Positions 3,598-60,334 of a stretch of 64,000 nt of DNA are shown one piece after another. The stretch is from Chalara sp. BL73 (taxonomy: Eukaryota > Ascomycota > Leotiomycetes > Helotiales). The notes beneath the pieces are model-generated. The model had not been told where the DNA came from and did not search any database. It saw nothing but the letters and a program-made list of their open reading frames with translations. Positions within the stretch are counted from its first letter, which is position 1. Each line of letters opens with the position of its first letter. The stretch covers positions 1,240,001 to 1,304,000 of the forward strand of contig CAKJVC010000150.1 of NCBI GenBank assembly GCA_918026815.1, in the 5' to 3' direction. The translations under genes and the position numbers were made by a program.

Positions 3598-6120
3598 TTA
3601 GTATATTTCTAGCTGTTCGGCACGTCCCTCATGCATCATCTCTCCATCCATCATGCCGTGAAAGTAACTCTCGCCAACAAGTTGCCACTTTTTCCCGCTC
3701 GAAACGTTTGCGACGTCGTCCATGCCTCGCTGGCGTCGTAATAGGAAAGGTACCTGAGTGCCGGGAATGATAAACACCACGTCGCCGGCCTCGGAGTATG
3801 GAGGTACCATCCCCATATACCCACGCTTAGTAATAGCAAACCTACGCTCTCGCGTATGCGGCCCCGACGCGTTGGCAAACTTACCGCCGTCCAGTGCATA
3901 TCTTGAAATAGAACTGTCAAGGATCTCTTGCGCTTCCGGGCTTATGTTAGAGTTCTGCGGGTTCATATCTGCTCCGTACTCGGACAATGTCTCGATAAGT
4001 CGTTCCATTGCTTGATAGTACACGAAGAAATTCGCCTCGGCAGGTCGAGTACCAGTTGGTGTTCTATCGCCAATGAGCGTCCTCCAAAAAGCTTCAGCCA
4101 GACGGATTCCCGTAGGATAAGGCTGGCTCCTTGCCCTCCCCAAGGCCATATCTCGACTCTCTGCATAGTTTAAGAAGCTTCCGGGGAACAAGGAAGTCTT
4201 GGGAACGCCGTTTTCTGACACTCCGAAGAATTGAGGACCTACTTCGTGGATATGATCCACTCTGATGCCATTAATAGTGAGCGTGATGCCCTCAGGTCCT
4301 AACAGCATATTCGGCTGTTCATTGATAGTACCCGAGGAGCGATACGGTGACGCTGTGGGGTGGCGCCAGTACATTCCAGCCAATCTCCGGCTACTCCAAT
4401 CTGGAACCCAGGATGTCTGAAGCTCACAATTACGATAAAAGCCAATACCTGCGAGATGAAGTATGCGTGAAGGATATTCTTGTCTTAGCAGATATTCGGC
4501 TGTTTTTAAGAATGGGCGCTCGATTGCGGAGTTATAATCCGGCATGATATCGTCAGAATCCACCGCTGCACTGATTCCTTGTACAGCAAATACATTGTCT
4601 CGAGGGTCTGTGGCAATGGAGTTAATGCTGGCGATTAGAAGGTCAAAGAGTTCCATTGACTGGTTGCGCTGAATGCCCTCCCTAACTCTCCCCAAGGTCG
4701 CTATCTGCAAGCCTGCGTCCATAGGGGGTGGGATGAAGCTCCGCCAATATATCTTCGATATATGCCATACAGTGTTCGGATCGTGGTGGAAAAGAGCTTG
4801 CATTATCGACGAAAAGTAGTCCCATGTAATAATTTCTCCTCCATACGATACAATAACTCTTTTAGAAACTGCAATCTCTTGAATAATCCAACATCTGGCC
4901 CAATAATCATGTTTGATAAGATTTGTTAGGGCAGGCCATGCAGGCGATTCAATATTCAATTCCATTAAGGAGAGTGATGCTCGTTTGCCAGGATCATCGA
5001 AATCCATCCGTCGACGAAGATGCGCGAGAAATCCTATGGCATCATTAGCATCTGGAGCATGACCAAGCCATATAATGGTGTGGTATGAGGAACTGTATAT
5101 ATTCCTCATCAATTGGACTTGAGAACTTTTCTCATTATCGTCGCCTTGATTTATGCAGATGGAGTCTATCCATATGAACCTAGTCACTAGAGAAGATGCT
5201 CTATCGTGCACGATCTCGTAGACTCTTTCGGAAACGTCGAGACATCTCCCATTCAGGACGAGCGCCTTCAAAGCTCGTCGCGCACCCCAAGTGTAGGAAA
5301 TTGTTTCAAATTCTGGTGCCTTATCTAGGCGAACGTGTACTAGCTCGCAACGAACCGGGCTCAATAGTGTCCACTTAGAGAGCCTCAAGAGACGGATCTC
5401 TCCATTTTCAAGGGCGGAGTACTTGTACTTCTTTAGTTCTGCCACAAGGCTTGCGGTCGTCACGTCTCTGTACGCAACCAGAGACGCCATGCACTTGAGA
5501 TAAAAGCGAAGACAAAAGCGCACGGCGGTGGCAAAGAATTGCCAGAGTTTGCGGAGGCAGGCAAGGACTTTCGGCCCGGCAAAATTCCAGGCTTTTGCCG
5601 CTCCAACGTTGAAAGTCTCCCGTGGATTGTCGATTAAACAAAAAAACAGGGTTCCAGTCAGACCGATGAGCTGTAAAGCGGGATACACAACCAAAAGAGT
5701 CTTTACGCAGAAACCCCACACGACACTTATGTTGCGGAATACCAAGGACATGAAAACGTAAGATACCAAGTCGGACGCATTGATGTAAAATTGAGTGATT
5801 AGATCATCATCAGCATCATCACGGCTGATAAGCCGTCGGAGTGTAACGGCAGCCTTTCGCCACGATGATTGTCCAAATAAGAAGAGGTACAAATGACAAA
5901 CAACGAAGACTATCCAAGCCGGCATGTAGTATCCATACAAGCCTGGCTTGGACAAAAGCCAAGCACAGACTTTGGCCATGACTGTGTCTCGCAACGCAAA
6001 GAAGGTTGCTTTAAAGCCGAGCAATAGGAAGACGATCAAGACTCGTAAAGTGGCAGGAAGTTGTGTGATGAATGCACCTGCCGCTTCTTGATCAGGTTCT
6101 CTACTGTTCAGCGACGCCAT
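3598..6120 (-). CDS. HET-domain protein with N-terminal membrane segments
   Basis: Single 840-aa exon; ATG at 6120. The N-terminus is strongly hydrophobic, with likely membrane helices near residues 22-43, 60-82 and two or three between 105 and 155. The HET domain follows from about residue 261 (FETISYTWGARR), with FIWIDSICINQGDDN, the IYSSSYHTIIWLG strand and WARCWIIQEIAVSK, all in the usual order. The C-terminus carries the common HET-protein end module (GDVVFIIPGTQVPFLLRR, then a GESYFHGMMDGE stretch). HET proteins trigger incompatibility or programmed cell death. HET itself is a TIR-related fold. The membrane anchor is uncommon and implies action at a membrane. The gene appears intact. 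Confidence 0.88.
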   Translation of the reverse strand: MASLNSREPDQEAAGAFITQLPATLRVLIVFLLLGFKATFFALRDTVMAKVCAWLLSKPGLYGYYMPAWIVFVVCHLYLFLFGQSSWRKAAVTLRRLISRDDADDDLITQFYINASDLVSYVFMSLVFRNISVVWGFCVKTLLVVYPALQLIGLTGTLFFCLIDNPRETFNVGAAKAWNFAGPKVLACLRKLWQFFATAVRFCLRFYLKCMASLVAYRDVTTASLVAELKKYKYSALENGEIRLLRLSKWTLLSPVRCELVHVRLDKAPEFETISYTWGARRALKALVLNGRCLDVSERVYEIVHDRASSLVTRFIWIDSICINQGDDNEKSSQVQLMRNIYSSSYHTIIWLGHAPDANDAIGFLAHLRRRMDFDDPGKRASLSLMELNIESPAWPALTNLIKHDYWARCWIIQEIAVSKRVIVSYGGEIITWDYFSSIMQALFHHDPNTVWHISKIYWRSFIPPPMDAGLQIATLGRVREGIQRNQSMELFDLLIASINSIATDPRDNVFAVQGISAAVDSDDIMPDYNSAIERPFLKTAEYLLRQEYPSRILHLAGIGFYRNCELQTSWVPDWSSRRLAGMYWRHPTASPYRSSGTINEQPNMLLGPEGITLTINGIRVDHIHEVGPQFFGVSENGVPKTSLFPGSFLNYAESRDMALGRARSQPYPTGIRLAEAFWRTLIGDRTPTGTRPAEANFFVYYQAMERLIETLSEYGADMNPQNSNISPEAQEILDSSISRYALDGGKFANASGPHTRERRFAITKRGYMGMVPPYSEAGDVVFIIPGTQVPFLLRRQRGMDDVANVSSGKKWQLVGESYFHGMMDGEMMHEGRAEQLEIY

Positions 6121-16577: not shown

Positions 16578-18485
16578 TCATTCCAGCATCAAACTCTCAC
16601 AGTTACTTTGGTTGAAAGCTTCTCCGTACATAATACCGTGGATATACGCGTCTCCGATCAGTGACCCATATCCTCCGATCCGTTTTCTTATAATCAGTGG
16701 GACCTTTGATCCTTCAAGCAGCCAAACCTCATCGTCCTGCCTTATATCCCCAGAAGCCAAGCCAATATATCTCCTTCGCTTCGTTCGGATCATGCGTCTA
16801 TACATTACATACTGTAGTCGCTCCTGGAAGCTCGCAGGTGGCTTTTTATATACTAGGAGTGCCTTAACTAGGGCTAATTCCGTGAAGAAAATCTGCAAGA
16901 AGCCTAACCCAAGTTTCTGAAGAATCCGATTCGGCTTTTTAGCTTCATTCCACTTGATAAATTCATTCCTGAGGCACTCCTTGCCTTCTTCTTGTTTCTC
17001 CTGCTTTGAAAGATTCCCAGTAGCTAATGTTTGCCAGAAGGTGTCTTCAATAGTCTCGCCACTGTCGTAACTGTCGGTTCGTGTACGAAGCTCAGCCACG
17101 CTTTCCCAGGTCGACAAAGTGTGCTGCACCTGGTAAATGCTTCTAATACAGCGGCCGATGGAAAGGCCTATGCTGCTCGGCATGTAGTGTCCCTCGTACA
17201 TGTCGCCGACAGCGACGACGGTATCGACGATGTGGCCTCTTGTTGCCAAAACGGTCGGCTGATGTGGCGGAATGAACCCTGGTTCGTAGGAAGTGCTGTT
17301 TGTAGCGCAGAATGGTTCTGATATCCTATATCCTGCCTCCTCTCCGTTGGCCAATGAACTCGTTTCACTTCCAAGGATTTGTCGAAGTTTCTCGGATTGA
17401 CCTTCTGTTGGTACGCTCCAGTCTGGCACCCATGATGGTAAGGCTTCGATGCCTGGCATGTGTTTCAATGCTGGCAAACTGAGAATATCCAGATTCTTAT
17501 CATGCAGAGTTATGGTCCGCGCAACGCTAGTGTATATGGTTCGATAGTCCTGAGTGTAGTCCACTTTAACTTCAGCCTGCGGCTTTGTTGACGTCTCTGT
17601 CAAACCCAAGAACGCGTAGACTTTATCTTTTGGATCTGTAGCTCCACAGCGGCGATGGCGTAGGAGCAAGCCAAGGAGAGTACATCCTCTTGCGCGGTAG
17701 GTGGCAGCCTCATCCGCTATAGGTATATGATAGCTAACCGCCGGATGTGATGTAAATGCAAGTTTTGTCTTGAACGCAAAGTCCATCCCCTGTACTAGAT
17801 CGGCCCAGCCCACACTGCAAGCCCCCAAAAAGAGTGCAGCTTTCTTCGCAACTGCAGCCTCTTGGACGATCCAGGAACGCTTGAACCATTGCGCCTCCAA
17901 TAGCGACAACAATGATACATAGTCGGGGCTCAACAGCGACGGCAGTCCGTACCTCGCCAGATCGTGGCTATTGAGGACGTCGATCTTGGGGACACTTGGC
18001 CCAGCGATTGCCGCTGCATCTTTCAGTTTCCCTATCAATGAGATTGCAGCCTCAGAATTGCAGTTCTTAAGTCTCCCTCCCAACCAAATAAGAACGCCAC
18101 TGCACCCTTCGTATATCCGACGCATAAGTGGAACCTGTATGTTCTTTTCCTCTGTGCTCGTTTGGTCAATACATATGGCATCAATCCACAGCTTCCTGGC
18201 CACCTCCTTACGACGGAAAACGCGCAAGGCAGCGTGTAAGTCTGGCCTCAAGGCAAAGGTACCGTTTCGCAGACACCCTTCCTCATGGATAGGTATCTCC
18301 ATTTCAGCATCTTGCTTACCCCAACAGTAGGAGAGTGCCTCATATGTTTTGTTGTCGGATATTGCTTCAAGCTTCCTTGTGCTAAGTTCGCATTGGATCT
18401 CGTCCGCGTCCCCTCCAGGTAGTAACGTAAGGATACGGATAGAGTCTCCTCCGACCGGTAGTGGACTATATTGAAAAGATTCCAT
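16578..18485 (-). CDS. HET-domain protein (635 aa)
   Basis: Single exon, ATG at 18485. The HET domain starts at residue 48 (YEALSYCWG), followed by KLWIDAICIDQTSTEEKN (98-115), MRRIYEGCSGVLIWLGG and WFKRSWIVQEAAVAKKAAL, then the conserved RRCGATDPKDKVYAFLGL block. The C-terminal module (SGDIRQDDEVWLLEGSKVPL, IGDAYIHGIMYGEAF) is the usual end of this class. There are no membrane segments and no breaks. Known role of the family: cell-death trigger in heterokaryon incompatibility, often activated by a partner protein. The partner here cannot be told from sequence. Confidence 0.9.
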   Translation of the reverse strand: MESFQYSPLPVGGDSIRILTLLPGGDADEIQCELSTRKLEAISDNKTYEALSYCWGKQDAEMEIPIHEEGCLRNGTFALRPDLHAALRVFRRKEVARKLWIDAICIDQTSTEEKNIQVPLMRRIYEGCSGVLIWLGGRLKNCNSEAAISLIGKLKDAAAIAGPSVPKIDVLNSHDLARYGLPSLLSPDYVSLLSLLEAQWFKRSWIVQEAAVAKKAALFLGACSVGWADLVQGMDFAFKTKLAFTSHPAVSYHIPIADEAATYRARGCTLLGLLLRHRRCGATDPKDKVYAFLGLTETSTKPQAEVKVDYTQDYRTIYTSVARTITLHDKNLDILSLPALKHMPGIEALPSWVPDWSVPTEGQSEKLRQILGSETSSLANGEEAGYRISEPFCATNSTSYEPGFIPPHQPTVLATRGHIVDTVVAVGDMYEGHYMPSSIGLSIGRCIRSIYQVQHTLSTWESVAELRTRTDSYDSGETIEDTFWQTLATGNLSKQEKQEEGKECLRNEFIKWNEAKKPNRILQKLGLGFLQIFFTELALVKALLVYKKPPASFQERLQYVMYRRMIRTKRRRYIGLASGDIRQDDEVWLLEGSKVPLIIRKRIGGYGSLIGDAYIHGIMYGEAFNQSNCESLMLE

Positions 18486-34320: not shown

Positions 34321-37300
34321 CTATACTGTCGTCAAGCTCCAATCTGCTGCTTCATTTAGTGGAAGATCGTCCACCCATGGAGTATACAACGGCCGTAGGT
34401 GAGTATTCCAGCCCTCGGAGTGTTTCGCGCCACGCCGGCGCAAGGCTTCGGCGATGCTTCTTCGGTCGTCTACCATGGCCCAATCCAGGAGCGTGTAGCC
34501 ATTCCCATCTTTAATAGATGTCTCTATCTCTTGAAATTCTGACAAAGTCTTAACAGCTACCTCATTTCCAGATTTTGTGGCTACGTGGAGAGGTGTATTT
34601 CCGTACTTATCTTGTGTGTTAATGTCGGCGCCCAATGCTTTGAGAATGCGGATGTACTTTCGGACTCTATCACAGCTCATTTTCCACAGGATATACCCTG
34701 GAGAATCGTAGAGATCAATATCGAACATCATCTCATCTTCTTCGTCATCATCTTCGTCATAATTTTTCACTGGCTTGTACTTTGTTGTGTTCCATTGGCA
34801 AACTCGATAAAGTGGGGTTTGTCCGCAATGATCCTTCTGGTGGATTTTGATCCTTAAGTTCTCAGCATCACCCCCAATTTCCTGCAATACAAAGTCGATG
34901 AGTTCTGTATTCCCACTACTCAAGGCAAGGTGGAGTGCATTGCGTTTGAACATATCTAACGAGTGTATATCAGCGCCAGATTGGAGCAATGACTGCGCAC
35001 ATGACCGAGACCCAGAAGATAAGGCGTAATGAATGGGACAGTTTCCCAAGCCGTCTCTCAGATTAGGATTTGTACCAATCTCCAGTAAAACCTTAACTGC
35101 GGGCCAATTTCCGAAGATTGCGGCATAGTGAAGTGGCGAGCGGCGGCTTTTGTCAACCACGTCTATTTTCCATCGGAGGAGTTTCAAACACTGTCGAATA
35201 AAGGCATCAGACTGCCACATGGCCAGTAGATGCAACAGATGTCGGCCTTGCTGGTCTTTGCCATACTTGTGGAACGGCTGGTTCAGAAAAAGTAAGACAA
35301 TTGATCCATGACCCTCTTCTGCAGCGACGTGGATTGGGAGTCTTTGGTGTTTGTCTCGTATCATGTAGTCGGCTCCAGCTTTGAGAAGTGCTTCGCAAGC
35401 TGGCTTGTTGCGATGCTCCGCAGCAACATGAAGTGCCGTCTTATCGTAGAGAACCTTGTGATTAAGCCACTCGGCTGGCTTATGTTTGACCAATGAGGGA
35501 ATTGATTTCCAGTGGAATTCACTTGCCCAATGTGCAAGAGTTCGGCCTTTTTCATCTGGGAAAGAGTCATCGACACCAAATTTAGTCCTGAGTTGCTGTA
35601 CAATCAATTCCCAATCTTGCTGTGCACACAACTGCAATAATCTTGTCCCGCTGTTGTTTTCGTGAAAAAATTTACTCGGGAGGATTTCAAGGACGTTGCG
35701 CAAGCCATCCCCAATACCATGGAAGGCATATCTCTCAAGTAAATTCATGCCGTCTGGCTCGGGTTGAAGTGCTTCCAATGGGCGGGTCTGCAGAATCACT
35801 TTTTCAATTGCTTGCCATTGCAAAACACTCGCCGTGTGCAGGAAAGACATCTGTGGCCGCTCCTCATTCAGACTGTTGGGATTCCGGGCCAAGTTTCTGT
35901 GGAACCAGTTGGACGGCATGTCCCACCTGGAAATCAGCTTCAATGCCACAGACTCGTACAGGCCATCGTGGAAAAGTTGGTCTAAGTACGTGCATGAGTT
36001 CTTATCTTGAACATTGACATCGAGGTCTTTCCGACTTAGAAGACTTTGTGCAATCGTGAGCATATTAGCCTTTGGAAGGCACCAATGGAGGACTGTCCAC
36101 CCATCCTTTCCTTTAGCGTTGATATCAGCCCTCGGATCGTCAACCAAGGACTGGATAATATCAGTGCTTGCACTGCCCTTGCATGCAAGATGAATGGCGT
36201 TATCGGCCATTGGCTGCCCTCCATAAAGACTTAATGTAGTATTATCCTGGGCAAGTAAGAGCTGCAGAGAATCTTTCCGATTTTCGAGTGCCGCCCAGGC
36301 GAGCGGTGTCCATCCACAGCTATCGGTGCCATTTATGTTCTGGCCACGGTCAATGAGATTTTTCACCACGGCTGGGTGGTCCCCGATGCGCATCATTAAG
36401 TGCAAAGGGGGCACACGCGAGAACTGATCAATGGAATTCCAGGGCATTCCTCGATGAATCTTCGCTTTCCCTAGTAGCATGGCCACTAGGTGAGAGAAGT
36501 ATGACTGCCGAAGTAAGGCAAAGCGTGTGAGAGAGGCCACTACTTCAGGAGAGGATCCACCTTGACTGCAATGGTAATTCCAGTGCGCTACACAGTACGA
36601 AAAAAGGCTGTGATTTTCGATATGAAGAAGCCCTCGACGCTTACGTTGCCTCAACTCGGACAATTTTCCTTCACTGTCTGAGTTTCCTTGTGAGTCATTG
36701 CCGTCGTCATATTTGCTCAAGTCGATATTACCCAACTTTTTGTTTCCCTTCAAAGCCTTCGCTAAAGCCTCCCTGATTTCATCCGTGAGGACTTCTTGAG
36801 CAATGTTGCGGAGGCGACCAAAGTCGCGGAAGCTGAGGATGATGATGCAAGCCTTAGCAAGTTCAGCATCAATATCACACTCCCGGATGGAATACCTGGA
36901 AAGTATATTAGAGTTTGGGGGTGAAAATTTTTGAGGCGAAGACGTTAAAAGCTCTCTGATCGTTGAATGTGTGAACCGAACGGATCGATCAGGCTCCACC
37001 TTAAGGAGGTACCCAAAAGCCTGATCAAACTGAACTTCGAAATTGAACCCCAAGGACTCTACAAGATCTGCCCAAGACCGCTGGCCTGCTCCAATTGCGA
37101 CAGCATGCTGTAACTCCAGGACACTGAGTGGCTTCCGGGACCCGAGCACCCACGTAAATCCCTGCTTCGCGACCTCCTGAGAATCCTCCGGAATCCGCTC
37201 AAGAAGGGAGCAATAGTATGCTGTTGCTTCCTTTGAAATCTTCCGGAGGCTTTCCAATCGAGTCTTGATTACTTGCGGTGACCAATAGGACACCCCACAG

Positions 37301-39272
37301 TAGAAATTCTTCCAAGCAAGAGAAGCTTGCAAAAAGTTACCCTCAGAGAGTTGTATGAATGTCTCCTCGATCTCGGTCTGGTGCTGCCACGGGATGACAC
37401 CATCCGTACAGAGATCTTCCACCTTCGTAGTAATGAATCGGTGGACGTCCTCTCCCGTATCACCACTACCATGCATTTCGAGCTCGATACAGTTGTGTTT
37501 GAAGCGCCGAGAGTAAGAACTTACGCGATCAGAGAAGACCAGTTTGACTTTATGAATAATATCTTGCTTAATAATCTCTCCGGTATGCTTGAGTAATGCA
37601 TCTCGAGAATCCGTGGTAAGCTCATCAGTAGCGTCAACAAAAATCCAGAAATTAACATCTTTGCTACGTTGAAGGATTGTTGAGAGACTGTCCCTCAGCG
37701 TATCCGTACTAATCTCACCGAGACTCTCCTGCTCTTCGCTGATTCTGGCAGTATACTGTTCCAAAGTGGAATCGTCAAGATAACGGAAAAGTTCCATTTT
37801 CTGCGACAATATCTGATGAAGGATCGAGCTTAGAAAGTGGAAATAGTTGTTTCGCAGCGGGTCATTCGAGCCACAGAAGAAGAATACAACCAAATATTCG
37901 TTTTCCTTTGTCACTTTACATCGTTGAAGCCAGCGGCGTTGGGTTTCAATCAGATATCTCATCAAAGTCGTTTTTCCCACACCCGGGATACCAGATATCC
38001 ATAAGACCTTATTCGTAGAGATATCCCGCCAGTTTTTGAACGACTCATTAGCAGTGATCCATGTGCAGGTCCCTGGACATGGTCGAGAAACCTGGCGAAG
38101 TAGGATGTCAGGGTCAAAGCTTTTGAGGCTGTCGAGAAACGTTGATCGTGTGGAAGTGTTGTCTGCTTTGCGTTAAAGTCTTCCATCAGAGTCTTATTAG
38201 CACAGGAGGCTCACAAGGCTGCCGTTTCTCCAGAGCATCATCAATGAGCTCTCTAAGGCAGTCGAGTACCAGCTGAAACTTCTCACTCTTCTCGTTGGAG
38301 AATCGACACATAGACCGGTGATCTGCTTCAATTGGTATTGGCGTCTCATTGGGGAGCAGCAGAATCGCCGAGTCCTTGTCAACAACCTTAGAGTGTCAGT
38401 CATGCGTACAACAAATGGGGCAGATAGCAAATACTAATCCTGGAACCCCTTTTATTTTCAATCGTTCATATATGGTGAATATGCGGAGAGACTGGGATCG
38501 CTCAACAAATTGCAAGCAAATCTCACCCAGGCAGGAAGATTTAGGCTGAAGGTCTTGCAATAGTTGTGTCCTTATAGAACCAACCGTGAATACGTCGGCC
38601 ATCGTTCCAAAGATCTTACCCCAGAAGGCTGCATCTGATCCACGATGCGGTGTACCCATGAACATAATCCCAAAAGTGTCGCGGCTAATAGAAAAATATC
38701 GGTCTGCCTTTTCATGCGCAATTATCAGAGCCTTTTTCAGGACGATGCCACCGAGGCTATGGCAAATGATGATTATCGGTCTCTCTGCGTCGTGGCAAGC
38801 TCTCTTCTTAGCCCTGATCCTCTCCAGCAATGACCTAGCATAATCATCAATTCTGGAGGCAGTCCCCGAGAACGCCACTTTCGAGTTATAGCCATACGAG
38901 AAGATTCTTGCTTGCTCCAGAGCCGATGGAAGGAAATCACGCAGCCAAAAAAAGTCGTTTTCAGTCCATGTTTTCTCTATGTGTCCATTAAGACCATGGA
39001 TAGCGATGATACTGATAAGGCTATGTCAGAAAACGTGGTGGTTATTACCAGGCAGGGCGGAGGACCCACTCAATCTTCGTCGTGAACCCCCTCAGCTCGC
39101 CAGGCCAAAGTTCTTTCAGGCCATAGAGATCCTCATCCTCAGCTGTCACTTGGATCTCTGATGATTGCTCCGGAGAAGACAGTGCGGTCACGGAGGTCTT
39201 TATCGACTTATCAGAGCCTAAATCTCGGCGGACTCCCGACTTTCTACTGAACTGCTCCCGAAGACGATCCAT
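34321..39272 (-). CDS. NLR-type STAND receptor: alpha/beta hydrolase - NACHT - ankyrin repeats
   Basis: Four exons join in frame: 39049-39272, 38435-39011, 38215-38386, 34321-38162; 1604 aa (introns 37, 48, 52 nt). Residues ~75-300 are a lipase/SesB-like alpha/beta hydrolase: IAIHGLNGHIEKTW near its start, nucleophile elbow CHSLGG with Ser160, and FMGTPHRGSDAAFWG. The NACHT domain begins near 375 with P-loop GIPGVGKTTLM (K388) and a Walker B-like FWIFVDATDEL. A winged-helix-like region follows, then a long C-terminal half of ankyrin repeats (for example GWTPLAWAALENRKDSLQLL, RSPLHYAAIFGNWPAVKVLL, GNTPLHVATKSGNEVAVKTL). Fungal NLRs of this plan detect non-self or stress and activate the N-terminal hydrolase to kill the cell. 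The gene looks intact. The first intron is very short and should be tested. Confidence 0.88.
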
Positions 39273-44248: not shown

Positions 44249-46069
44249 ATGGAGGAGCGACTTACCCTCCCTCACGGAGTTCGCCGCCAGCAACAGCCTC
44301 CTCCGCTTATATCAGCGCCTGCAAATGACTTCATCCCTTTATCGGAGCTCAACACTGCCGTGGAACAGCACATCTACACACCTCTAGCCGAGGATGAGAT
44401 CCGGATTGTCCTGGTCAAAGCCGGCGGGAAGGACGACCCTTTGGAATGTTTTGTTCGCAATGTCAGCCATAAAGCTCCGGGACGCCATGCTGCTCTATCA
44501 TACGTCTGGGGTAGTCAAGGCAGCCCCAAGACGGTCTTGTTAAACTGCTACGAGTTTTTCGTCACGGAAAATCTTTATGAGGCTCTTTTACATCTGCGCT
44601 CAGAGTCCGAACTCAGAGTATTCTGGATAGACGCTCTGGCCATCAATCAAGCCGACATCGCGGAGAGGAATTCGCAAGTTGGAAAAATGGCATCTATCTA
44701 CTCATCCGCTTACGTGGTTCTCATTTGGCTCGGGGCTCAAGAAAAGAGAACTGAAGAGTTACTGAAGCTTGCACACGAAGACATGGAGGCTTTCTACAAG
44801 CGTCTAGCATCACCCGCCTCTCCAGATTGGCTCGAAGATAGCGTAGCCTTGATGAAAATACCGAGTCACCCTTATTGGACGCGATGCTGGATATGGCAGG
44901 AAATTCACTTTGCCAAACATGCCTTCGTAATCTTTGGGTCGTCCCAACTGGAGCTCACGACTCTTTACACCATTTGGCAATGGTTCCAAGAGGAGTCCTC
45001 CAAGCTCACAAAGGTAATATCCCCAGGAGCCCAAAATGAACACGTTCTAGCCCTTTTCCCTATATTCATGATGGGTTTCGCCAACTTGGAAAAGGTACCA
45101 ACCACCTCGCCAACCGGAGGCCGACAAGACCTCACAGTCGAGAAATGGTGCAAGATGTACGTCGACATGCAAGCAACGGACCCACGAGACTTGGTCTTCG
45201 CCTACTTTGGTTGCTTCCCGGAACATCTTCAAGCCAAAATTGATCTGGATTATGGCAGAGAGGCGGCTGAAGTTCTCGAAAAGATGACACGTCTTGTTAT
45301 TGAAGAGACTAAGTCACTTGACGTCCTGTTTACACCAACACCCGAGAGGATCTCCAGGCAAACTGGTTATTGGAATGTACCCAAAGCATCCTGGGCGATT
45401 GGTGGCAAGATTGGGGAAGGCGGACTTCTTATAGGGGGTCATATCTCCTTTTCTTATCCGATCTTCGCGGAGTTCCCAGCACCGACCATACTGCACACCA
45501 AAGGATTCACCCTAGGCACGGTTGGGAAAGTTAACTTATCCTTTTCAGAATTCCTTTATCCTTCAGATCCCAACGTCGGAAGATTTAATTCTATTCCAAG
45601 ATGGATGGTCGAAAAGTGGTCGCGAGCTGAACGACTAGCCAAAATGGATGCTTACTGCGAGCATTCGTTTCGTTCCTTCAATTTGGAATTCTCGGAAGAC
45701 GACAAACAAAAATTGAAATCGTTATATCGCTCTGGAAAGCTCACTGCATCGCCAAACGTCAATGTCGATGCCGTACAAATGGGCATGCACCACTCCCAAA
45801 GTACACGGATGTTCTTGGTTAATGAGATGTGCGCTTTTGGGGACAAAGCTGTTGCTCCAGGAGATAGAGTATGCGTCCTGCTGGGGGCATCCGTCCTTAC
45901 AATCCTTCGTCCATGTGGCGAGAGGGCGGCGTATCGTGTAGTTGGCGCAGCATGTACTCCGAAAACCTGGGATAGCGACGGTCTTCGTGATGTTCATGCG
46001 GCTCTGATAGCGTCGGGTGACGACGGTTCAGTTGTAAATAGTCTGCTAGAGGATTTCCTCCTTGTTTGA
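44249..46069 (+). CDS. HET-domain protein (606 aa)
   Basis: Single exon, ATG at 44249. HET landmarks: HAALSYVWGSQ (residues 80-90), RVFWIDALAINQADIAERNS (123-142), MASIYSSAYVVLIWLGAQ, and YWTRCWIWQEIHFAKHAFVI, then the DPRDLVFAYFGCF block. The end module (GDKAVAPGDRVCVLLGASVL, YRVVGAACT) is the standard C-terminus. It is soluble by appearance. ALAINQ replaces the more usual AICINQ. A family-typical role in programmed cell death after non-self contact is inferred. The gene is intact between two transposon-rich tracts. Confidence 0.9.
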   Translation: MEERLTLPHGVRRQQQPPPLISAPANDFIPLSELNTAVEQHIYTPLAEDEIRIVLVKAGGKDDPLECFVRNVSHKAPGRHAALSYVWGSQGSPKTVLLNCYEFFVTENLYEALLHLRSESELRVFWIDALAINQADIAERNSQVGKMASIYSSAYVVLIWLGAQEKRTEELLKLAHEDMEAFYKRLASPASPDWLEDSVALMKIPSHPYWTRCWIWQEIHFAKHAFVIFGSSQLELTTLYTIWQWFQEESSKLTKVISPGAQNEHVLALFPIFMMGFANLEKVPTTSPTGGRQDLTVEKWCKMYVDMQATDPRDLVFAYFGCFPEHLQAKIDLDYGREAAEVLEKMTRLVIEETKSLDVLFTPTPERISRQTGYWNVPKASWAIGGKIGEGGLLIGGHISFSYPIFAEFPAPTILHTKGFTLGTVGKVNLSFSEFLYPSDPNVGRFNSIPRWMVEKWSRAERLAKMDAYCEHSFRSFNLEFSEDDKQKLKSLYRSGKLTASPNVNVDAVQMGMHHSQSTRMFLVNEMCAFGDKAVAPGDRVCVLLGASVLTILRPCGERAAYRVVGAACTPKTWDSDGLRDVHAALIASGDDGSVVNSLLEDFLLV

Positions 46070-48239: not shown

Positions 48240-49712
48240 TCAAGAGAAATTGAAGCTGGCTGTGCCCCCAGTGACTTGCGTTCCAGGTATCACGTTACGA
48301 CCAGAGATGGGACCATTGAATACGGAGCCGCTGTACAAAGTCCGCCCTCGGTTGCTCTCAGTGACACTAGCAGGCTGAAGAAGGCACTGTTGTTGCCTTT
48401 TCGTAGCATCATTTTTTTCCTTCCATGCATCTTGGCTCTCTTCAACCATATTATACCAGAGCCAAAGCTGATTATGTACTCGAACATAGCCAGCGTCCTT
48501 TGCAGTCTTGAACTTTGTCATCCCTGTGTGCGTTGCGTGGATGCCATTGTTCGGATACGCGGTGAGAATCGCCGATTGCTTCGGTACTATCTGCAAGAGC
48601 TTAGCGCCCGACTTCGATTGAGAAAGAGTATAGTTAAGCGATTTTATACCTCACCAAGTCCAGCGCGTCCAACTTCCTCATAAAAGCAAAAGATGTTAAT
48701 ATATTTGCTGTCGTTTCTGCTTCGGTCATCAAGCATGGTATGAAATTCTTGTTGAACCGCGGCGAGCATCTCAGAGCCTGGCTGCAAGACTCCTACAATC
48801 TCAGAATTAGCTTTGCGCAGCAGGTTTGAGAGTTTCGAGATTGGGTGTCCCCAATTTGCAAGATTTGACCCGAGGTGTGGAGTGCCCATGAACGCAATCG
48901 CAACGGTGCTTTCGAGCAGGTCCTTAACATGCCCCTGAGCCGATCCGCGAGAGACAAGAAGGGCCTGCCCTGGTGTATTAATAGACCAGCGGCTAGTAAA
49001 TATCCTGGTATATGACTCGCCTGCTCAACAACCAATCCACCAAGGCTGTGCGCAACGAAGATCAAAGGGCGAAGGTTCTGTGACTTAAGTCAGCCTGCGG
49101 GTCCTAGTGACCAACTTCCAACGAAATATATCGGCTACTTTGACGACATCTCTTCACGGCTTCTTTGACTCGCATGCAATTCCAAGAAAGCCATTGCCAA
49201 TTACATGCACGATTGGTCATAAATAGCGCTACAGAATGTCTTACAGAATCTGTCCTCTTTCTCCGCATGGCCAGATCCTCAGCCAGAGCTTTCCCATGGT
49301 CTCTCAGTGTGCCGTTTCCCGCCGTGCTCAATCCTCGAATAATGTCGGCATCGTAGCCAAACGTGATGATTCGCGCCTTTGGGAGATCTTTTGCGAGTAG
49401 ATCCTTTGGCCAGAATACCTTGGCGGTTTGGTCGGTCCAAGTGGTTTCGCGATTGCCGGTTAGACCGTGGATAAATACGATGCTGGATTTGTTGGTTAGC
49501 AGAGCCGACAAGGAGTGGTAGATCGCTTACTCGATAATGTTATCAGTGTTGTCGGATAATGTTTGAAGACCATAATCTCCAACTGTCGAGAATAATTCAT
49601 CCCTTGGCAGGTCGGGATGGGCATTCTGGGCATCCCCACCGCCTTTTAGCAGCCCGGTGTCGGCTTTAGTATCAGGCGCCGTTAGGCGTACTAGCTTCTT
49701 GAAGAAAGACAT
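48240..49712 (-). CDS. SesB-like alpha/beta hydrolase effector with C-terminal amyloid-type motif
   Basis: Five exons in frame: 49531-49712, 49245-49482, 49021-49077, 48650-48964, 48240-48590; 380 aa. Hydrolase core: IVFIHGLTGNRETTWTD, nucleophile elbow VAHSLGG (Ser151), AFMGTPHLGSNLANWG, and a His candidate in NNGIHATHTGM. The last 26 residues (355-380; 48243-48320) form FNGPISGRNVIPGTQVTGG...FNFS, almost the same as residues 7-32 of the divergent NLR. Architecture and context match fungal SesB lipases, which end in a prion-forming motif and are switched on by a cognate NLR to damage membranes. The intron at 48965-49020 uses a GC donor (CAG|GCGAGT). The intron at 49078-49244 is long (167 nt). 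The exact motif class (sigma-like) is inferred. Confidence 0.87.
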
Positions 49713-49951
49713 TATATAAATTAACTGTGATCGTGAAAGCTACACCGGACGCTCATCAACATAATCAAATCGACTGATGTGAAGCTGCGAAACGTGATGG
49801 GCTGAAGACCGCCTAACTCTGCCTCAGCTGCGGCTGCGCCGCTGCCAAGCGCAGTTCGCATTTGCCCTCAGCTCCAATTTGACATCCTCATCACTTCAGT
49901 CTAGGAACTGCAAAATATATCTGTGTCCTGCGCCATTGTTCGAGGGCAAAG
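49713..49951. promoter_or_regulatory. 239-bp bidirectional promoter between effector and NLR
   Basis: This is all the DNA between the two start codons, so both genes must be driven from here. GC-rich centre (CAGCTGCGGCTGCGCCGCTG near 49828). No TATA box stands out. Co-regulation is inferred. Confidence 0.6.
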
Positions 49952-52900
49952 ATGCCACGCTTAAGCGAGTTCAATGGAGCCATTACCGGCCGCAACATCA
50001 TTGCTGGCTCGCACTTGGAGACTGGCGCTACCATGAACAACTACTTCGGAGGCTATCCTATAATACAGGGTGGGTCCACTATCGTAAGCCATACGATCAG
50101 CCACGTTTATGCTAACGTCAACGCCGCAGACGCATCGAGCCGAAAACGCGAGCCCTTCTCCACCGTCCCATTTCCCCCAGACCATGATTTCGTCGACCGC
50201 CCTGGGATTCTAGCGTGGATCCACGACAAGTGCGCGGGTCCAGGCGCTCGCGCAGCGCTCGCCGGTCTTGGCGGAGTAGGGTATGTCAACGTCCACTTCT
50301 TGGTGGTATGGTTTCTAATGTGACAAAGAAAGTCGCAGCTTGCTATCCGATACGCCCATAATATCCGCGATGTGTCGCCGCAAACATTCGTCTTTTGGAT
50401 GCATGCCAGCACCAAGGCCCGGTTCGAAGAAGCCTATAGAGGCATTGCGGATAGACTCGAGCTTCCTAGGCGAAATGATCCAAAGGTTGACGTTTTGCGG
50501 CTGGTCAGCGACTGGCTCTGCGACGAGACACATGGAAGGTGGATAATGATTTTGGATAATGCAGACGACATTGAGGTATTTTATCTATCGCGAGCACACA
50601 AGAAAGATGAATCTTTTGCTACAGCATCAGCACGGCTAGCGACTTACCTCCCTCAAAGCCGTAACGGATCGATTCTGATTACATCTCGAAGTAAAGATGC
50701 GGCGGCCAGGTTAGCAGGAGATTATAACAACATCAAAGAAGTTCGTGCAATGGACAAAAGCCAGGCTCTTTATCTCTTCCGGAACAAGCTGCAAAGCGCG
50801 TCAAACGAAGAAGGCGCCGCTGATCTCCTTTATGCTCTCGACTATATACCTCTCGCTATTACTCAAGCGGCGGCGTTTATTAACCGGCGAGGTCGAATGA
50901 CGGCATCTGGCTATCTAGATGAGTTTCGAAAGAACGATAAGAAAAAAGAAAGCTTCCTTAGCTGGGATTCGGGAAATCTTCGTCGAGATGAGAGCGCATC
51001 GAATTCAGTAGTGTTGACTTGGCAGATATCGTTTGAATGTATCCGAGAACAGAGGCGCTCGGCTGCAGACCTGTTATCGCTCATGAGCTTTTTCAATCCG
51101 CAAGGAATTCCGGAATGGATCCTTAGAAAGCATAGTGGGAGTGTGGCAAAGACTGGAGATGAAGCTGAGGATAAAAGCGCGTTTGACGAGGACCTTGACA
51201 CCTTGCAAGCTTATTCTCTTATAACAACGACGGGCGACGGTAGTATGTGTGAGATGCACGCTTTAGTGCAGTTCTGCACGCGAGTCTGGCTTTCTACTTT
51301 CAGCAATCCAAAACAATGGGACCGAGAGTTTCTAGGATTAATAGCAAGAGAATTCCCCTCCCCGGACTTTAAGAACTGGGCAAAGTGCCAGCAGCTACTT
51401 CCACATGTTGAATCGTTATATGAAAGCGAGCTGACCGACCATGAGTCAGTAAAGAAGTGGGCTCTTGTGCTCAACGAAGCTGCATGGTATATACAGACCG
51501 CCCTAGGGAAATACAACGAGGCGGAGAAACTGACCCGGCGAGCGCTGGAAGGGCGCGAGAAGGAGCTAGGTGAACAGCACCACGATACGCTGACGAGCGT
51601 AGGCAACCTGGCGTCGGTGCTACAAGACCAAGGAAAGTACGACGAGGCGGAGAAGCTAAACCGGCGAGCGCTGGAAGGGTGGGAGAAGGAGCTGGGTGAA
51701 CAGCACCCCGATACGCTGACGAGCGTAGGCAACCTGGCGTCGGTGCTACAAGACCAAGGAAAGTACGATGAGGCGGAGAAGCTAAACCGGCGGGCGCTGG
51801 AAGGGTGGGAGAAGGAGCTGGGTGAACAGCACCCCGATACGCTGACGAGCGTAGGCAACCTGGCGTCGGTGCTACAAGACCAAGGAAAGTACAATGAGGC
51901 GGAGGAGCTGACCCGACGAGCGCTGGAGTGGCGCGAGAAGGAGCTAGGTGAACAGCACCCCTATACGCTGACGAACGTAGGCAACCTGGCGTCGGTGCTA
52001 CAAGACCAAGGAAAGTACAATGAGGCGGAGAAGCTAAACCGGCGGGCGCTGGAAGGGTGGGAGAAGGAGCTGGGTGAACAGCACCCCGATACGCTGACGA
52101 GCGTAGGCAACCTGGCGTCGGTGCTACAAGACCAAGGAAAGTACAATGAGGCGGAGGAGCTGACCCGACGAGCGCTGGAGTGGCGCGAGAAGGAGCTAGG
52201 TGAACAGCACCCCTATACGCTGACGAACGTAGGCAACCTGGCGTCGGTGCTACAAGACCAAGGAAAGTACAATGAGGCGGAGAAGCTAAACCGGCGGGCG
52301 CTGGAAGGGTGGGAGAAGGAGCTGGGTGAACAGCACCCCGATACGCTGACGAGCGTAGGCAACCTGGCGTCGGTGCTACAAGACCAAGGAAAGTACGATG
52401 AAGCGGAGGAGCTGACCCGGCGAGCGCTGGAAGGGTGCGAGAAGGAGTTGGGTGAACAGCACCCCTATACGCTGACGAACGTAGGCAACCTGGCATCGAT
52501 GCTACAAGACCAAGGAAAGTACAATGAGGCGGAGAAGATGACCCGGCGAGCACTAAAAGGGCGGGAAAAGGAGCTTGGTGAACAACATCCTTTTACGCTG
52601 ACGAGCGCAGGGAACCTGGCGTTAGTGCTACAACATCAAAGAAAGTACGACGAGGCGGAGAAGCTGGCCCGGCGAGCACTAAAAGGGCACAAAAAAGAGC
52701 TTGGTGAACAACACCCTTTTACGCTGACAAGCGTAGGCAACTTGGCGTTAGTGCTACAACTCCAAAGAAAGTACGGCGAGGCGGAGAGGCTAAACCGGCA
52801 AGCACTGGAAGGGTGGGAGAAGGAGCTGGGTGAACAGCATCCCAAAACGCTGACCTCTGTTTACAACCTTGCTTATCTTTTGCACAAGCGCAAGCGGTAT

Positions 52901-53176
52901 AAAGAGGCTTCAAGCCTCTACCGCAGAGCATGCGACGGCTACAAGCAGAAGCTCGGTACCCAGCACCCAACTGCCATTGCATGTCTCAGTAATTTTTCAG
53001 CTATGCAACAAGAGGCAGAACAGGAAAGACTCGGACAAAGCAGGATGTTAATCAACAACAGCAAAGCGGCGCATAGAGAGACACCGACTCACGGGTTTAC
53101 TAGTCTGGCTAGCGGCGGAACTGCCACGGCCCTAGAGGTCACGTGCACCCTACATTTGATCATTGATATCCATTGA
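49952..53176 (+). CDS. NB-ARC-TPR NLR receptor with N-terminal amyloid-type motif
   Basis: Two exons: 49952-50280 and 50329-53176; 1058 aa. Residues 7-32 (FNGAITGRNIIAGSHLETG...) match the C-terminus of the divergent hydrolase. NB-ARC follows: P-loop GLGGVGKSQLA is created exactly by the splice, FVFWMHASTKARFEEAY, Walker B WIMILDNADD, RNN-like NGSILITSRSKDAA, GLPL-equivalent DYIPLAITQAAAFI, and a winged-helix region with MHALVQFCTRVWL (MHD-like). From residue 505 there are 11 full and one partial 42-aa TPRs of the kinesin-light-chain/TPR_10 type. The ligand-sensing TPR array is thought to release the nucleotide switch, letting the N-terminal motif template the partner's tail. The C-terminal ~20 residues abut a retroelement. 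Confidence 0.9.
51512..52897 (+). repeat. 11 tandem 126-bp units encoding TPRs
   Basis: Each unit encodes one 42-aa repeat starting Y(N/D)EAE. Two unit types alternate (HPDTLTSV / HPYTLTNV). Units 4-5 (51890-52141) and 6-7 (52142-52393) appear base-for-base identical. Units 9-11 are more diverged, as array edges usually are. Confidence 0.92.
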
Positions 53177-53180
53177 ACAG

Positions 53181-53450
53181 ATGTCACGCCACAGATGCGA
53201 ATGCCCATTGGCTCGCTTAGCTAGACCCTGGAGATGGTCACGTGCTACCATGGCTATATAAGGGCAATTTCAGTGGCAGTTACACAGTTTCTCTTTAGTT
53301 TAGAATCTTCGTATTTGATACCTTACAAACAGCTATCACTGGCGCCTGTATTGGGATCATGGCAGGAACCACGCCGAAACCAGCAAACAGCAGGCAGGAG
53401 AGCAAGCAAGGTTCGCTCTACACGCTATTAAAGAGAAAGATATGCAGAAA
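53181..53450 (+). repeat. Possible LTR plus start of a gag-like ORF
   Basis: TGTCACGCCACAG... with a TATATAAGG box near 53253, followed at 53359 by an ATG reading MAGTTPKPANSRQESKQ, which looks like the start of a retroelement Gag. No PBS or further coding part seen. Begins 5 bp after the NLR stop codon. Confidence 0.4.
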
Positions 53451-57796: not shown

Positions 57797-59551
57797 TCAT
57801 GGAAAAAAGTAATTTTGACCAGAAGGTGCTTCAAGCCGCCAACCTGGCGTAACGGGCGTCACCGGTGTCGCGGGAGTCACCGGAGCTTCATCCATCCAAA
57901 CCCCGCTGGACACAGTTGACGGTGGGACGTCCTTTATATCAATATTCAACACGGGACACTCTATGGCGTGAGATTCGAGCTCGATGGTTCTATTATTGAT
58001 GGAGACTAGAAGGTCGAGATACCGCCCTCCAATATGGACACGCAGATGATCCGTGAGCCTTGTGATTCCTGGCAGCTCGTCCCGAACGTTGCGCCATTCC
58101 ATTGACTCCACCAAATTCCTTTGCAAAATCAGAAATAGTAGACGGGCTTCGAACGTTCTTTTATCGATGACCAAGCAGCGTGGCGGGTCTCCCCGACCCC
58201 GGCCCCGAAAGTCAAACAGTACGCCGAAGTCAAGGCTCGTGCCCCCGATCGAAGCAATAAACGAGTACGCGACGATAGTCTTACTTGACAGGGGCCTGAA
58301 ACAGGTTCGTGTCTGGTGGTCCCAGGATCCCGCTGGGATCTCACTCTCGGTCCTTATCTTGATGTCGCTGTAGATCGGCATATGGAAAGCCGGCAAATAT
58401 CTCATCTGCACATCCACGCTCAAACCCGGGAGCTGGGCAGTGGTCAGTATACAGAACGTGTGAGTTCTAGTACTCCTGTGAAACTCCCGGTCGCTCTCAG
58501 GGAACTTCCCAAGGACCGGGGCCGTTTCACGAGCCAGTAATCCCGGCCCAATCTTTTTCAGATAAATACCGATATCATGAACAGCCGTTCTGCTACGGAG
58601 TTGCCCTAAGCGCAGTACGTATCTGCTTACCTGGTCAACATCGGGCCCACCCTTCGCGACTGGAACCCGCAGCAGATATGTTGATATCTGCAAGCCTTTG
58701 TTGGTAAGTGCATACGCGGAAATCGGTTCATCATCAAAAGGATGAATGTCATGACATTCGAAAAACTCCGCAGGAGACGAGGCGAGGAGGGAACAGCGCG
58801 GCCACTGAACTTGAAGATGGTCAGGCTGCCATGCAAACAGACTCAGATCTACCCCCTGTCGGATTATCTCCTCTTGCAGCCGACGGAACGCCTTCAAACC
58901 TTCGCCGTAGATCAGTGGCATATTGACATCGAATAAGCCGAGAAGACAATAGGCAATATCCTCAACTCGTGTTGTGACGCGCTGGGAAGCCCATGCCATC
59001 CTCTGAGCCGTTGAGAAGGCCTTAACAGACACTGATCCACGTATAGCAATGTCGGGGATGCCCGTGATTCTTGAAATGTCGGCCGAAAAGTCACTCCTAG
59101 ACCCTCTGTGGTTCCATTCACGATCATAGAACTGCACATTTGTCGGCGCCAGTAATTCTTGGAGGGTCCATCCGCGAGTGAACCAGCGACAATTGGGTAA
59201 CCCATCCTGGATTTGCGTCTCCTTTGCCAAGTCGGCTAGATGAACAAAACAAATCTTGGATTTCTGATACCATCGAAACATGGAATTAATGGACTCTGTG
59301 AGCTCAGCGCTGCTAGTCTTGTCGATGCAGCATGTATCCGCCCAGACGAACTCTATGCCGTGATTTAGGGCGAGGCTGCAGGTCTCTGTGACTTTAGCAT
59401 AGCCCCCTTTCGTAGGTAGATAGGGCGAGGACATGTCTTGAAGGGTTACTTCCTCCCCGGGATCCCAAGTGTGTGATAAAATGGCATATTCTGGGAGATT
59501 GGACTCGTTGAAATCGTAAAACTTCAGAGATTTTGCCTGAATGAGTCTCAT
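57797..59551 (-). CDS. HET-domain protein, HET + C-terminal DUF8212-type class (584 aa)
   Basis: Single exon. ATG at 59551 (MRLIQAKSLKFYDF) is the family's usual start; the frame extends 12 codons upstream without an ATG. The order is YAILSHTW (22-29), VWADTCCIDKTSSAELTESI (69 on), MFRWYQKSKICFVHLADL, WFTRGWTLQELLAPTNVQFY, then ITGI...RMAWASQRVTTRVEDIAYCLL and MPLIYGEGLKAFRRLQEEII. This is the best-known HET-protein layout (tightly conserved in Pezizomycotina and often preceding NLR modules elsewhere). Here it is a stand-alone protein with a ~280-aa variable C-terminus and a Pro/Thr-Val repeat tail (TPATPVTPVTPG). Intact. Likely cytosolic cell-death regulator. Confidence 0.9.
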   Translation of the reverse strand: MRLIQAKSLKFYDFNESNLPEYAILSHTWDPGEEVTLQDMSSPYLPTKGGYAKVTETCSLALNHGIEFVWADTCCIDKTSSAELTESINSMFRWYQKSKICFVHLADLAKETQIQDGLPNCRWFTRGWTLQELLAPTNVQFYDREWNHRGSRSDFSADISRITGIPDIAIRGSVSVKAFSTAQRMAWASQRVTTRVEDIAYCLLGLFDVNMPLIYGEGLKAFRRLQEEIIRQGVDLSLFAWQPDHLQVQWPRCSLLASSPAEFFECHDIHPFDDEPISAYALTNKGLQISTYLLRVPVAKGGPDVDQVSRYVLRLGQLRSRTAVHDIGIYLKKIGPGLLARETAPVLGKFPESDREFHRSTRTHTFCILTTAQLPGLSVDVQMRYLPAFHMPIYSDIKIRTESEIPAGSWDHQTRTCFRPLSSKTIVAYSFIASIGGTSLDFGVLFDFRGRGRGDPPRCLVIDKRTFEARLLFLILQRNLVESMEWRNVRDELPGITRLTDHLRVHIGGRYLDLLVSINNRTIELESHAIECPVLNIDIKDVPPSTVSSGVWMDEAPVTPATPVTPVTPGWRLEAPSGQNYFFP

Positions 59552-60334
59552 TCTGTAAGGGCTGACTAACGGCGTAAAGGCAAGCACCTCTAAGCGGGAT
59601 TGTGCTGTGTTGAGAAGTTAACGCATTTGTTATACAGAGATTCGGGACCATGAGTCTAGTGATGAAAAAAAAAAAGATTGAGATGTAGGTTGGTGAGGCT
59701 GTGCGTGAGCGAGGAGCAGCTCAGTCATGCGGATTACGGAGGCTTAGCAAATTAGTTTTGTTGCCGCCTTCTCATTGGCCTCTCCACGATGTTATCCCTG
59801 CGAGGCGAAAATCCCGTAGTATACTGCCATTGTGCGAAAATCTCAACACTGAACGGTTGGATCATTTGCAAAGTTTGGGATATTGGGGTTGTAATCTATG
59901 TTTGTAATTGGTTTCCAAACTCTTCTGAACCTGTTAAAGTGGCTTAATTGTTGACGATCGGAATGATATTCTTTGGCTACTACGTTCTTTCTGTACTAGA
60001 TATAAATAGCTACATAATCTCAATTAATCTAACCTTCAAGGTGATAGTAGTATACTTAAGCAGCCTCTAAATCAAGCGCTTTTCCAAGCATTTCAACCTA
60101 TGATAAAGTAGGAAATCGCACAAGAAATCTGCGAGCCAGATATAAGGTCGACTACCGTTGCCCCATTTATGGAGTGTCAGCCATAATGTAGATTATCAGC
60201 ATTTTCTTCCTCAGGCATATTTATTAAGCTCCCAATTATATCTCCAGTGGTTGCAGGAATTGAATCACCAGTGTGTAATGTTCGGGGTAGCCTTCGGCCC
60301 CGTACCTAGGGCTCGTTGGTTGGTATAGTATATT
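59552..60334. other. Intergenic
   Basis: Promoter of the minus-strand HET gene at the left end. Nothing else recognised. Confidence 0.4.

Follow-up and report, generated by a model that had tools for sequence, protein, structure and literature searches.

The window analysed here, a stretch of 64,000 nucleotides from the fungus Chalara sp. BL73 (contig CAKJVC010000150.1, positions 1,240,001 to 1,304,000), contains a divergent gene pair that codes for a SesB-like α/β hydrolase and for a NOD-like receptor (NLR) composed of NB-ARC and tetratricopeptide repeat (TPR) regions, and the two proteins share a short motif at opposite ends (Table 1). The hydrolase gene is interrupted by four introns, three of the GT-AG and one of the GC-AG type (49020-48965). 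Its spliced product aligns over the full length with P0001 from Tricladium varicosporioides at 86% identity, and the gene model is supported by such full-length alignments to relatives. The split appearance of the gene in a six-frame list is explained by the four introns, all with plausible splice sites, and since the spliced protein is 86% identical to a relative throughout, a pseudogene was rejected.

The hydrolase matches DUF676 at 33.9 bits (curated Pfam cut-off 20.3), and in an alignment of 49 relatives Ser151, the probable nucleophile, and His285 are nearly invariant. The protein thus combines the domain, the nucleophile and the histidine expected of a SesB-like hydrolase, with a predicted catalytic role. 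Among solved structures, the one closest in sequence to the family profile is the esterase BlEst2 (6wpx, E 2.8e-6). An AlphaFold2 model of the Tricladium orthologue P0001, built from 49 sequences, reaches a mean predicted local distance difference test (pLDDT) score of 79.9; the hydrolase core is confidently modelled, mostly above 90, in contrast to the last 47 residues, which score 43-57 by blocks.

Table 1. Features of the divergent gene pair and of its surroundings in the window
Feature	Position	Strand	Remarks
SesB-like α/β hydrolase gene	48240..49712	(-)	5 exons, 380 aa; spliced model, DUF676, full-length relative
Hydrolase exons	49712-49531, 49482-49245, 49077-49021, 48964-48650, 48590-48240	(-)	
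Hydrolase C-terminal FNG motif	48243..48320	(-)	residues 355-380; found by pattern; conserved in 29 other hydrolases
Spacer between divergent start codons	49713..49951		239 bp; shared promoter putative
NB-ARC-TPR receptor reading frame	49952..53176	(+)	exons 49952-50069, 50130-50280, 50329-53176; 1038 aa
Receptor N-terminal FNG motif	49970..50047	(+)	residues 7-32; present in 9/10 relatives
TPR-coding tandem array	51507..52854	(+)	126-bp unit, 10.7 copies, 89% matches
Dispersed repeat near receptor 3' end	53122..53364		243 bp, TGCCA/TGGCA ends, GGAAC on both sides
SesB-like hydrolase, then NACHT P-loop, then ankyrin reading frame	34321-39100	(-)	
Four HET-domain reading frames	3598-6120, 16578-18485, 44249-46069, 57797-59587		above Pfam cut-off, within 64 kb

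The receptor gene contains two introns (50070-50129 and 50281-50328), and splicing of the second completes the Walker A sequence GLGGVGKSQ. The Pfam scan, the search for receptor relatives and the shuffle test were run on a receptor model of 1058 amino acids, which keeps the first intron and therefore has 20 extra residues. TPR and DUF7779 scored above their cut-offs and NB-ARC, at 22.9 bits, just under its cut-off of 23.5; PF00931 is precomputed in six of ten receptor relatives. An NB-ARC region that contains Walker A and precedes a series of TPR repeats is the architecture of an NB-ARC-TPR NLR, and among the best 25 of 36 families no other Pfam effector domain precedes the nucleotide-binding region. 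The 126-bp TPR units are highly alike and a likely source of copy-number variation; long antisense reading frames across the array (51211-51894 and 51471-52553) look like artefacts of it.

The last 26 residues of the hydrolase (FNGPISGRNVIPGTQVTGGTASFNFS) and residues 7-32 of the receptor (FNGAITGRNIIAGSHLETGATMNNYF) represent the same motif at the effector C-terminus and the NLR N-terminus, with a hydrolase-receptor profile probability of 97.2%. An earlier interpretation of this DNA from its letters alone (the sequence-only reading) had noted the identity of nine of the first 13 positions and a 239-bp promoter shared by both genes; the former agrees with a hand count, and the spacer, measured from start codon to start codon, is indeed common to both genes, its promoter role being putative. 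The receptor and effector versions diverge in their second half. The two motifs have net charges of +1 and 0 and a glycine, asparagine and aromatic make-up, with prolines in the effector version. The local score of 63 across 27 columns was reached by none of 20,000 shuffles of the receptor’s first 60 against the hydrolase’s last 40 residues, and by 2 of 500 when both full-length proteins were shuffled; with the tail removed, the best hydrolase-receptor score is 38. In the 58.66-Mb assembly (199 contigs), a composite motif probe found exactly two places, both in this pair (E 2.6e-10 for the hydrolase, 0.119 for the receptor), and a receptor-type probe recovered the receptor and, weakly, one stretch of its next exon. 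The hydrolase’s own tail retrieved itself alone and a Monosporascus-type motif nothing; given these weak probes, the search of the genome has limited sensitivity, and copies that have diverged further could have escaped it.

The motif, which we term FNG, has the consensus F-N-G-x-I-x-G-R-x-V-I-x-G-x-x-x-(x)-x-G-G-T-x-N-F-N-F and recurs in relatives of both genes. By pattern it is found in 25 hydrolase relatives among the best 120 of 990 hits. A search with the tail only (22 candidates, restricted to those of similar length with common 5-residue words) returned 21 proteins, comprising 13 SesB-like hydrolases, nine of them already listed and four new, as well as eight HET-domain proteins and no other type. 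On the receptor side, 46 candidates yielded ten relatives, eight of which carry FNG by pattern and one (P0122) by eye; the start of P0130 is apparently wrong in its gene model. Scans of viral contigs gave pattern stretches and no relative. Compared with our hydrolase, 24 of the 29 others with an FNG tail show 44-50% identity in the catalytic domain and about 12-38% in the linker, but they retain 12-26 of 30 residues of the motif, and 20 of the 24 retain at least 21.

Both partners also occur together elsewhere, on contigs of equal length in Tricladium varicosporioides (P0001/P0125), Talaromyces amestolkiae (P0004/P0123) and Zopfia rhizophila (P0065/P0127). Pairing in these three species is deduced from the equal contig sizes, and a short distance is known just for Talaromyces, where the locus tags are consecutive (BHQ10_009463/4). 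NLR and effector genes are adjacent at the Chalara locus, and may be so in the three other species. The conservation of the motif, these partners and the restriction of the tail-only search to two protein types bear out the proposal of the sequence-only reading that the locus holds a divergent NLR/effector pair with a shared terminal motif.

The eight HET-domain proteins (P0134-P0141) all score above the Pfam cut-off for HET and carry the FNG tail at or near the C-terminus in seven cases; in P0138 a further acidic stretch is present. Seven derive from metagenomes and one from Ophiobolus disseminans. HET-domain genes number more than 100 in some species, the domain alone kills cells, and most of the functions are called mysterious in the text available (PMC10197012). 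According to the accessible parts of the respective papers, a 2012 study sought HET/STAND pairs and found none (PMC3321046), and a 2022 survey included HET among its 19 starting effector profiles and linked its motifs with effectors of the pore-forming, PNP_UDP or mixed kind, with HET unnamed in that portion (PMC9815663). Literature on the HET domain and amyloids, as far as its text was available, contained no FNG-type HET tail. This link matters most: an NLR-type tail on a HET protein turns the activation of HET by a fold passed on from an NLR into a testable question. The host genome yielded no third FNG match, and therefore this host seems to use the FNG hydrolase without a HET effector.

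Published excerpts on fungal motif families describe HRAM1-5 (PMC4518210), PP and sigma (PMC3321046), and PUASM 1-2 and GDQN (PMC9815663, PMC12261475). The sequence-only reading had pointed to sigma, had considered a variant motif and had proposed a check with motif profiles. A Pfam scan of 25 FNG instances at E 10, where HMMER filters limit weaker matches, gave no match to NACHT_sigma (PF17106), to Ses_B (PF17046, corresponding to PP) or to HET-s (PF11558), the model to which the HRAM comparison was confined; the only hits were to two unrelated families, each with a single instance and at E 0.14. Elsewhere in this genome, the models for sigma and PP score above their cut-offs at two places and one place, respectively. 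Profile comparison yielded probabilities of 0.05-0.10% against three sigma stretches from the same genome and of 0.16-1.13% against five PP sequences chosen by eye (pairwise E 0.02-0.76), as opposed to 97-99% when the FNG sets from hydrolases, HET proteins and receptors were compared with one another. In view of this difference we rejected an assignment to sigma or PP and favour a motif family of its own over a sigma variant. The submotifs GxGxQFN and GGTQNINT make up sigma (PMC3321046), and PP has a RHIM-like, pseudopalindromic organization centred on Q (PMC5485727) that FNG lacks; by reading, FNG also departs from the PUASM pattern FxGxGxQxxGxGxF and the GDQN pattern NxxxGxQYxxxGxGDQNxVS (PMC9815663, PMC12261475).

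The motif is therefore apparently uncatalogued with regard to the sigma, PP and HET-s profiles and the published PUASM and GDQN patterns. We consider it possible, if rather doubtful, that FNG is a divergent member of a catalogued family, be it HRAM1-5, PUASM, the unassigned NLR34 or another profile of the 2022 supplement. NLR34, as described in the text available, is an unassigned 28-residue ascomycete motif in 29 NLRs, and in contrast to FNG it has no effector-side neighbours in that survey (PMC9815663). A text search of the literature for FNG motif strings retrieved no fungal NLR paper; the supplements and the HRAM and NLR34 logos lie outside its reach and outside the profile comparison, and the failure of FNG to match any Pfam amyloid motif or to resemble sigma or PP speaks against membership.

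Taken together, the locus is in our judgement likely to be an amyloid-signalling NLR/hydrolase immune module with an apparently uncatalogued motif, which is the best explanation of the data, and the pair probably works like NWD2/HET-S. The TPR array would allow the NB-ARC-TPR receptor to perceive a cue, and the receptor would oligomerize, whereupon its clustered N-terminal FNG motifs could nucleate a cross-β fold. On the side of the SesB-like hydrolase, this fold would serve as a template for the C-terminal FNG tail, normally unstructured, and the enzyme might then assemble into an active lipase/esterase signalosome and probably kill the cell. We infer oligomerization, amyloid folding, templating, enzyme activity and cell death from NWD2/HET-S, PNT1/HELLP/SBP and HET-eN/SesA/SesB.

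Precedents with sigma or PP motifs have been published both for SesB-type lipases and for receptors of the NB-ARC or TPR kind (PMC3321046, PMC5485727). The closest parallels are the HET-eN/SesA/SesB cluster of Nectria haematococca, where a SesB-type hydrolase lies beside an NLR with the sigma motif at the same ends, and other sigma loci, which include NB-ARC and TPR receptors as found here (PMC3321046). In the PNT1/HELLP/SBP system of Chaetomium globosum, the PP motif is shared by effectors of two types, including a putative lipase (PMC5485727); the second effector type is a HeLo-like protein for PP and a HET protein for FNG. PUASM and GDQN, later additions to the fungal NLR/effector motifs, follow the same logic with PNP_UDP or SesA effectors, to judge from the passages available (PMC9815663, PMC12261475). 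NWD2/HET-S of Podospora anserina resembles our pair in the adjacency of the NLR and effector genes, the position of the motif and the proposed mechanism, but comprises a HeLo pore-former, two motif copies and a NACHT-WD40 receptor, rather than a hydrolase, a single copy and an NB-ARC-TPR receptor.

Several observations weigh against the amyloid module. Within the hydrolase’s own clade (P0001-P0004 and the partial P0008) the pattern of conservation is reversed, with 88-94% identity in the domain and only 19-24 of 30 residues retained in the motif. Seven of the ten receptor hits lack a partner hydrolase among the best 120 of 990 hits, and for P0002 and P0003 no FNG receptor was found. Receptor and effector motifs from one locus resemble each other no more closely than those from different loci: among four pairs, ours included, the cognate combination was equalled or surpassed by 6 of 24 permutations, and the tail of our hydrolase scores 78 against the Zopfia receptor and 62 against its own receptor. 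Co-evolution of cognate motif pairs is thus not supported by this test, and in this respect the FNG pairs are unlike the sigma clusters, for which the pages available report within-cluster motif similarity (PMC3321046). The amyloid, binding, enzyme and cell-death steps are drawn by analogy from other systems, published supplements may already list the motif, and a repeat insertion replaces the last residues of the receptor.

This insertion bears on the possibility, which we regard as unlikely, that the module is decaying and the pair does not work in this strain. The 243-bp repeat appears to be a solo long terminal repeat-like element with a 5-bp flanking duplication. Besides the repeat itself, the matches listed in a genome search comprise 39 copies (117-219 bases, 78-91%) and one of 30 bases; with 40 of 106 candidates scored, at least 40 copies are present. 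The reading frame of the receptor indeed ends at 53176, as the sequence-only reading had it, but this point falls inside the repeat. A conserved basic C-terminal tail, which is found in five of ten receptor relatives, is visible downstream of the insertion in another frame. The claim of a “complete” module accordingly holds for the presence of both genes and the motif, but not for the end of the receptor. Against decay, the motif, NB-ARC, DUF7779 and TPR regions remain open and the motif, NB-ARC and TPR are untouched by the insertion, the hydrolase is intact across five exons, and the other five receptor relatives likewise lack such a tail in their annotated proteins.

Distinctly improbable, in our view, is a homotypic docking or co-localization peptide that joins receptor and hydrolase without any amyloid. 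Such a peptide would suit the short, glycine-rich motif with its effector-side prolines and the differing second halves of the two versions, and amyloid formation is itself argued by analogy; yet position, length, composition, low charge and gene layout fit the amyloid-signalling precedents as described in the published excerpts (PMC3321046, PMC5485727). Chance similarity between two low-complexity protein ends, which 2 of the 500 full-length shuffles would allow, can practically be discarded in view of the end-restricted shuffles, the genome probe and the conservation of the motif in 29 hydrolase relatives, nine of ten receptor relatives and eight HET proteins.

Beyond the single locus, the amyloid-module interpretation extends to the way in which FNG tails are distributed among effectors. 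A hydrolase-domain tree was built from 94 of 125 rows, after removal of four short domains, 18 absent tails and nine unusual tails; four tail labels were reassigned by hand, and the borderline P0096 received a label of its own. In this tree the FNG-tailed proteins form two well separated groups, and the starred branches force at least two changes. A subset of 46 rows, picked after inspection of the larger tree, places our hydrolase in a starred set of 19 rows that includes 13 “GRD”-tailed hydrolases. Forcing all FNG rows together was rejected in this subset (log-likelihood 87.8 lower, approximately unbiased test p 2e-132); a single clade of ours and all GRD rows was also disfavoured (26.0 lower, p 0.039), because other tails nest there. 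Since the FNG rows split on the hydrolase-domain tree, the tails have been exchanged or acquired at least twice according to these sequences, in a direction left unspecified. FNG looks like an address family in its own right, found on HET-domain proteins too, with tails exchanged between effector lineages.

SesB-like hydrolases such as P0005-P0022 bear other tails, e.g., GGGxxFxGNVxAGRDF or GGNVITGxxNNxxGGKxxxGNxFQGPVxF, and such short tail types may represent further uncatalogued signalling motifs; Pfam amyloid motifs were absent from the 49 hydrolase relatives scanned (25 of 32 families displayed). By eye, two further SesB-like hydrolases of this genome, L037 (C129:1345115) with the tail TGSGTAIGIGSQNVQGGF and L038 (C129:903938) with a sigma-like GSGTQNLNTG stretch, seem to carry their tails between the hydrolase and a nucleotide-binding domain, and an NB-ARC paralogue of the receptor (C7:1271876) has a PP-like N-terminus.

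The hydrolase’s own clade, including P0001-P0004, is 88-94% identical in pairwise comparisons across Leotiomycetes, Dothideomycetes, Eurotiomycetes and this host, where a Phaeosphaeriaceae source is presumed to belong to its class, as are the species used as yardsticks. Hydrolase relatives in five Penicillium species are 77-89% identical, those in four Dothideomycetes of the sister group 71-84% and those in five Dothideomycetes of the other FNG clade 75-85%, figures that may include paralogues and that leave housekeeping genes outside the comparison. The NB-ARC region of the receptor is 91% identical to that of Bisporella, which we take to be a leotiomycete, and 79% to that of Talaromyces; Leotiomycetes such as Tricladium are among the closest named relatives for both genes. 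Because the identity across three classes exceeds that among the five Penicillium species, the data suggest that this hydrolase clade moved by horizontal transfer. If true, the near-identity in three classes would be an example of immune modules being transferred between distantly related fungi.

The broader proposition, to which we give an even chance, is that FNG constitutes an unlisted amyloid address code that connects NB-ARC-TPR receptors to SesB-like hydrolases and to standalone, TIR-like HET proteins, with tails swapped between effectors and horizontal crossing of classes. If so, at least some standalone HET proteins would be amyloid-switched outputs of NLRs. That FNG is also borne by another kind of cell-death protein points to a wiring code of fungal immunity whose labels can be swapped, and a further motif family on two effector types would mark the motif as just such an exchangeable label. 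The motif family, its carriage by HET proteins and the exchange between effectors look new.

The surroundings of the pair are rich in related genes. The four HET-domain frames make up an immunity-gene cluster within the window; as partners of the FNG system they were discarded, since none carries an FNG tail at the sensitivity of the composite genome probe. The SesB-like hydrolase on the same strand as ours was likewise considered as a second trans effector and rejected, as it reads from hydrolase into NACHT, with the ankyrin frame beyond. This gene, 9 kb away from the trans pair, probably encodes an NLR that carries its effector in cis, and together with the FNG pair it would place both known wirings, cis and trans, within 64 kb.

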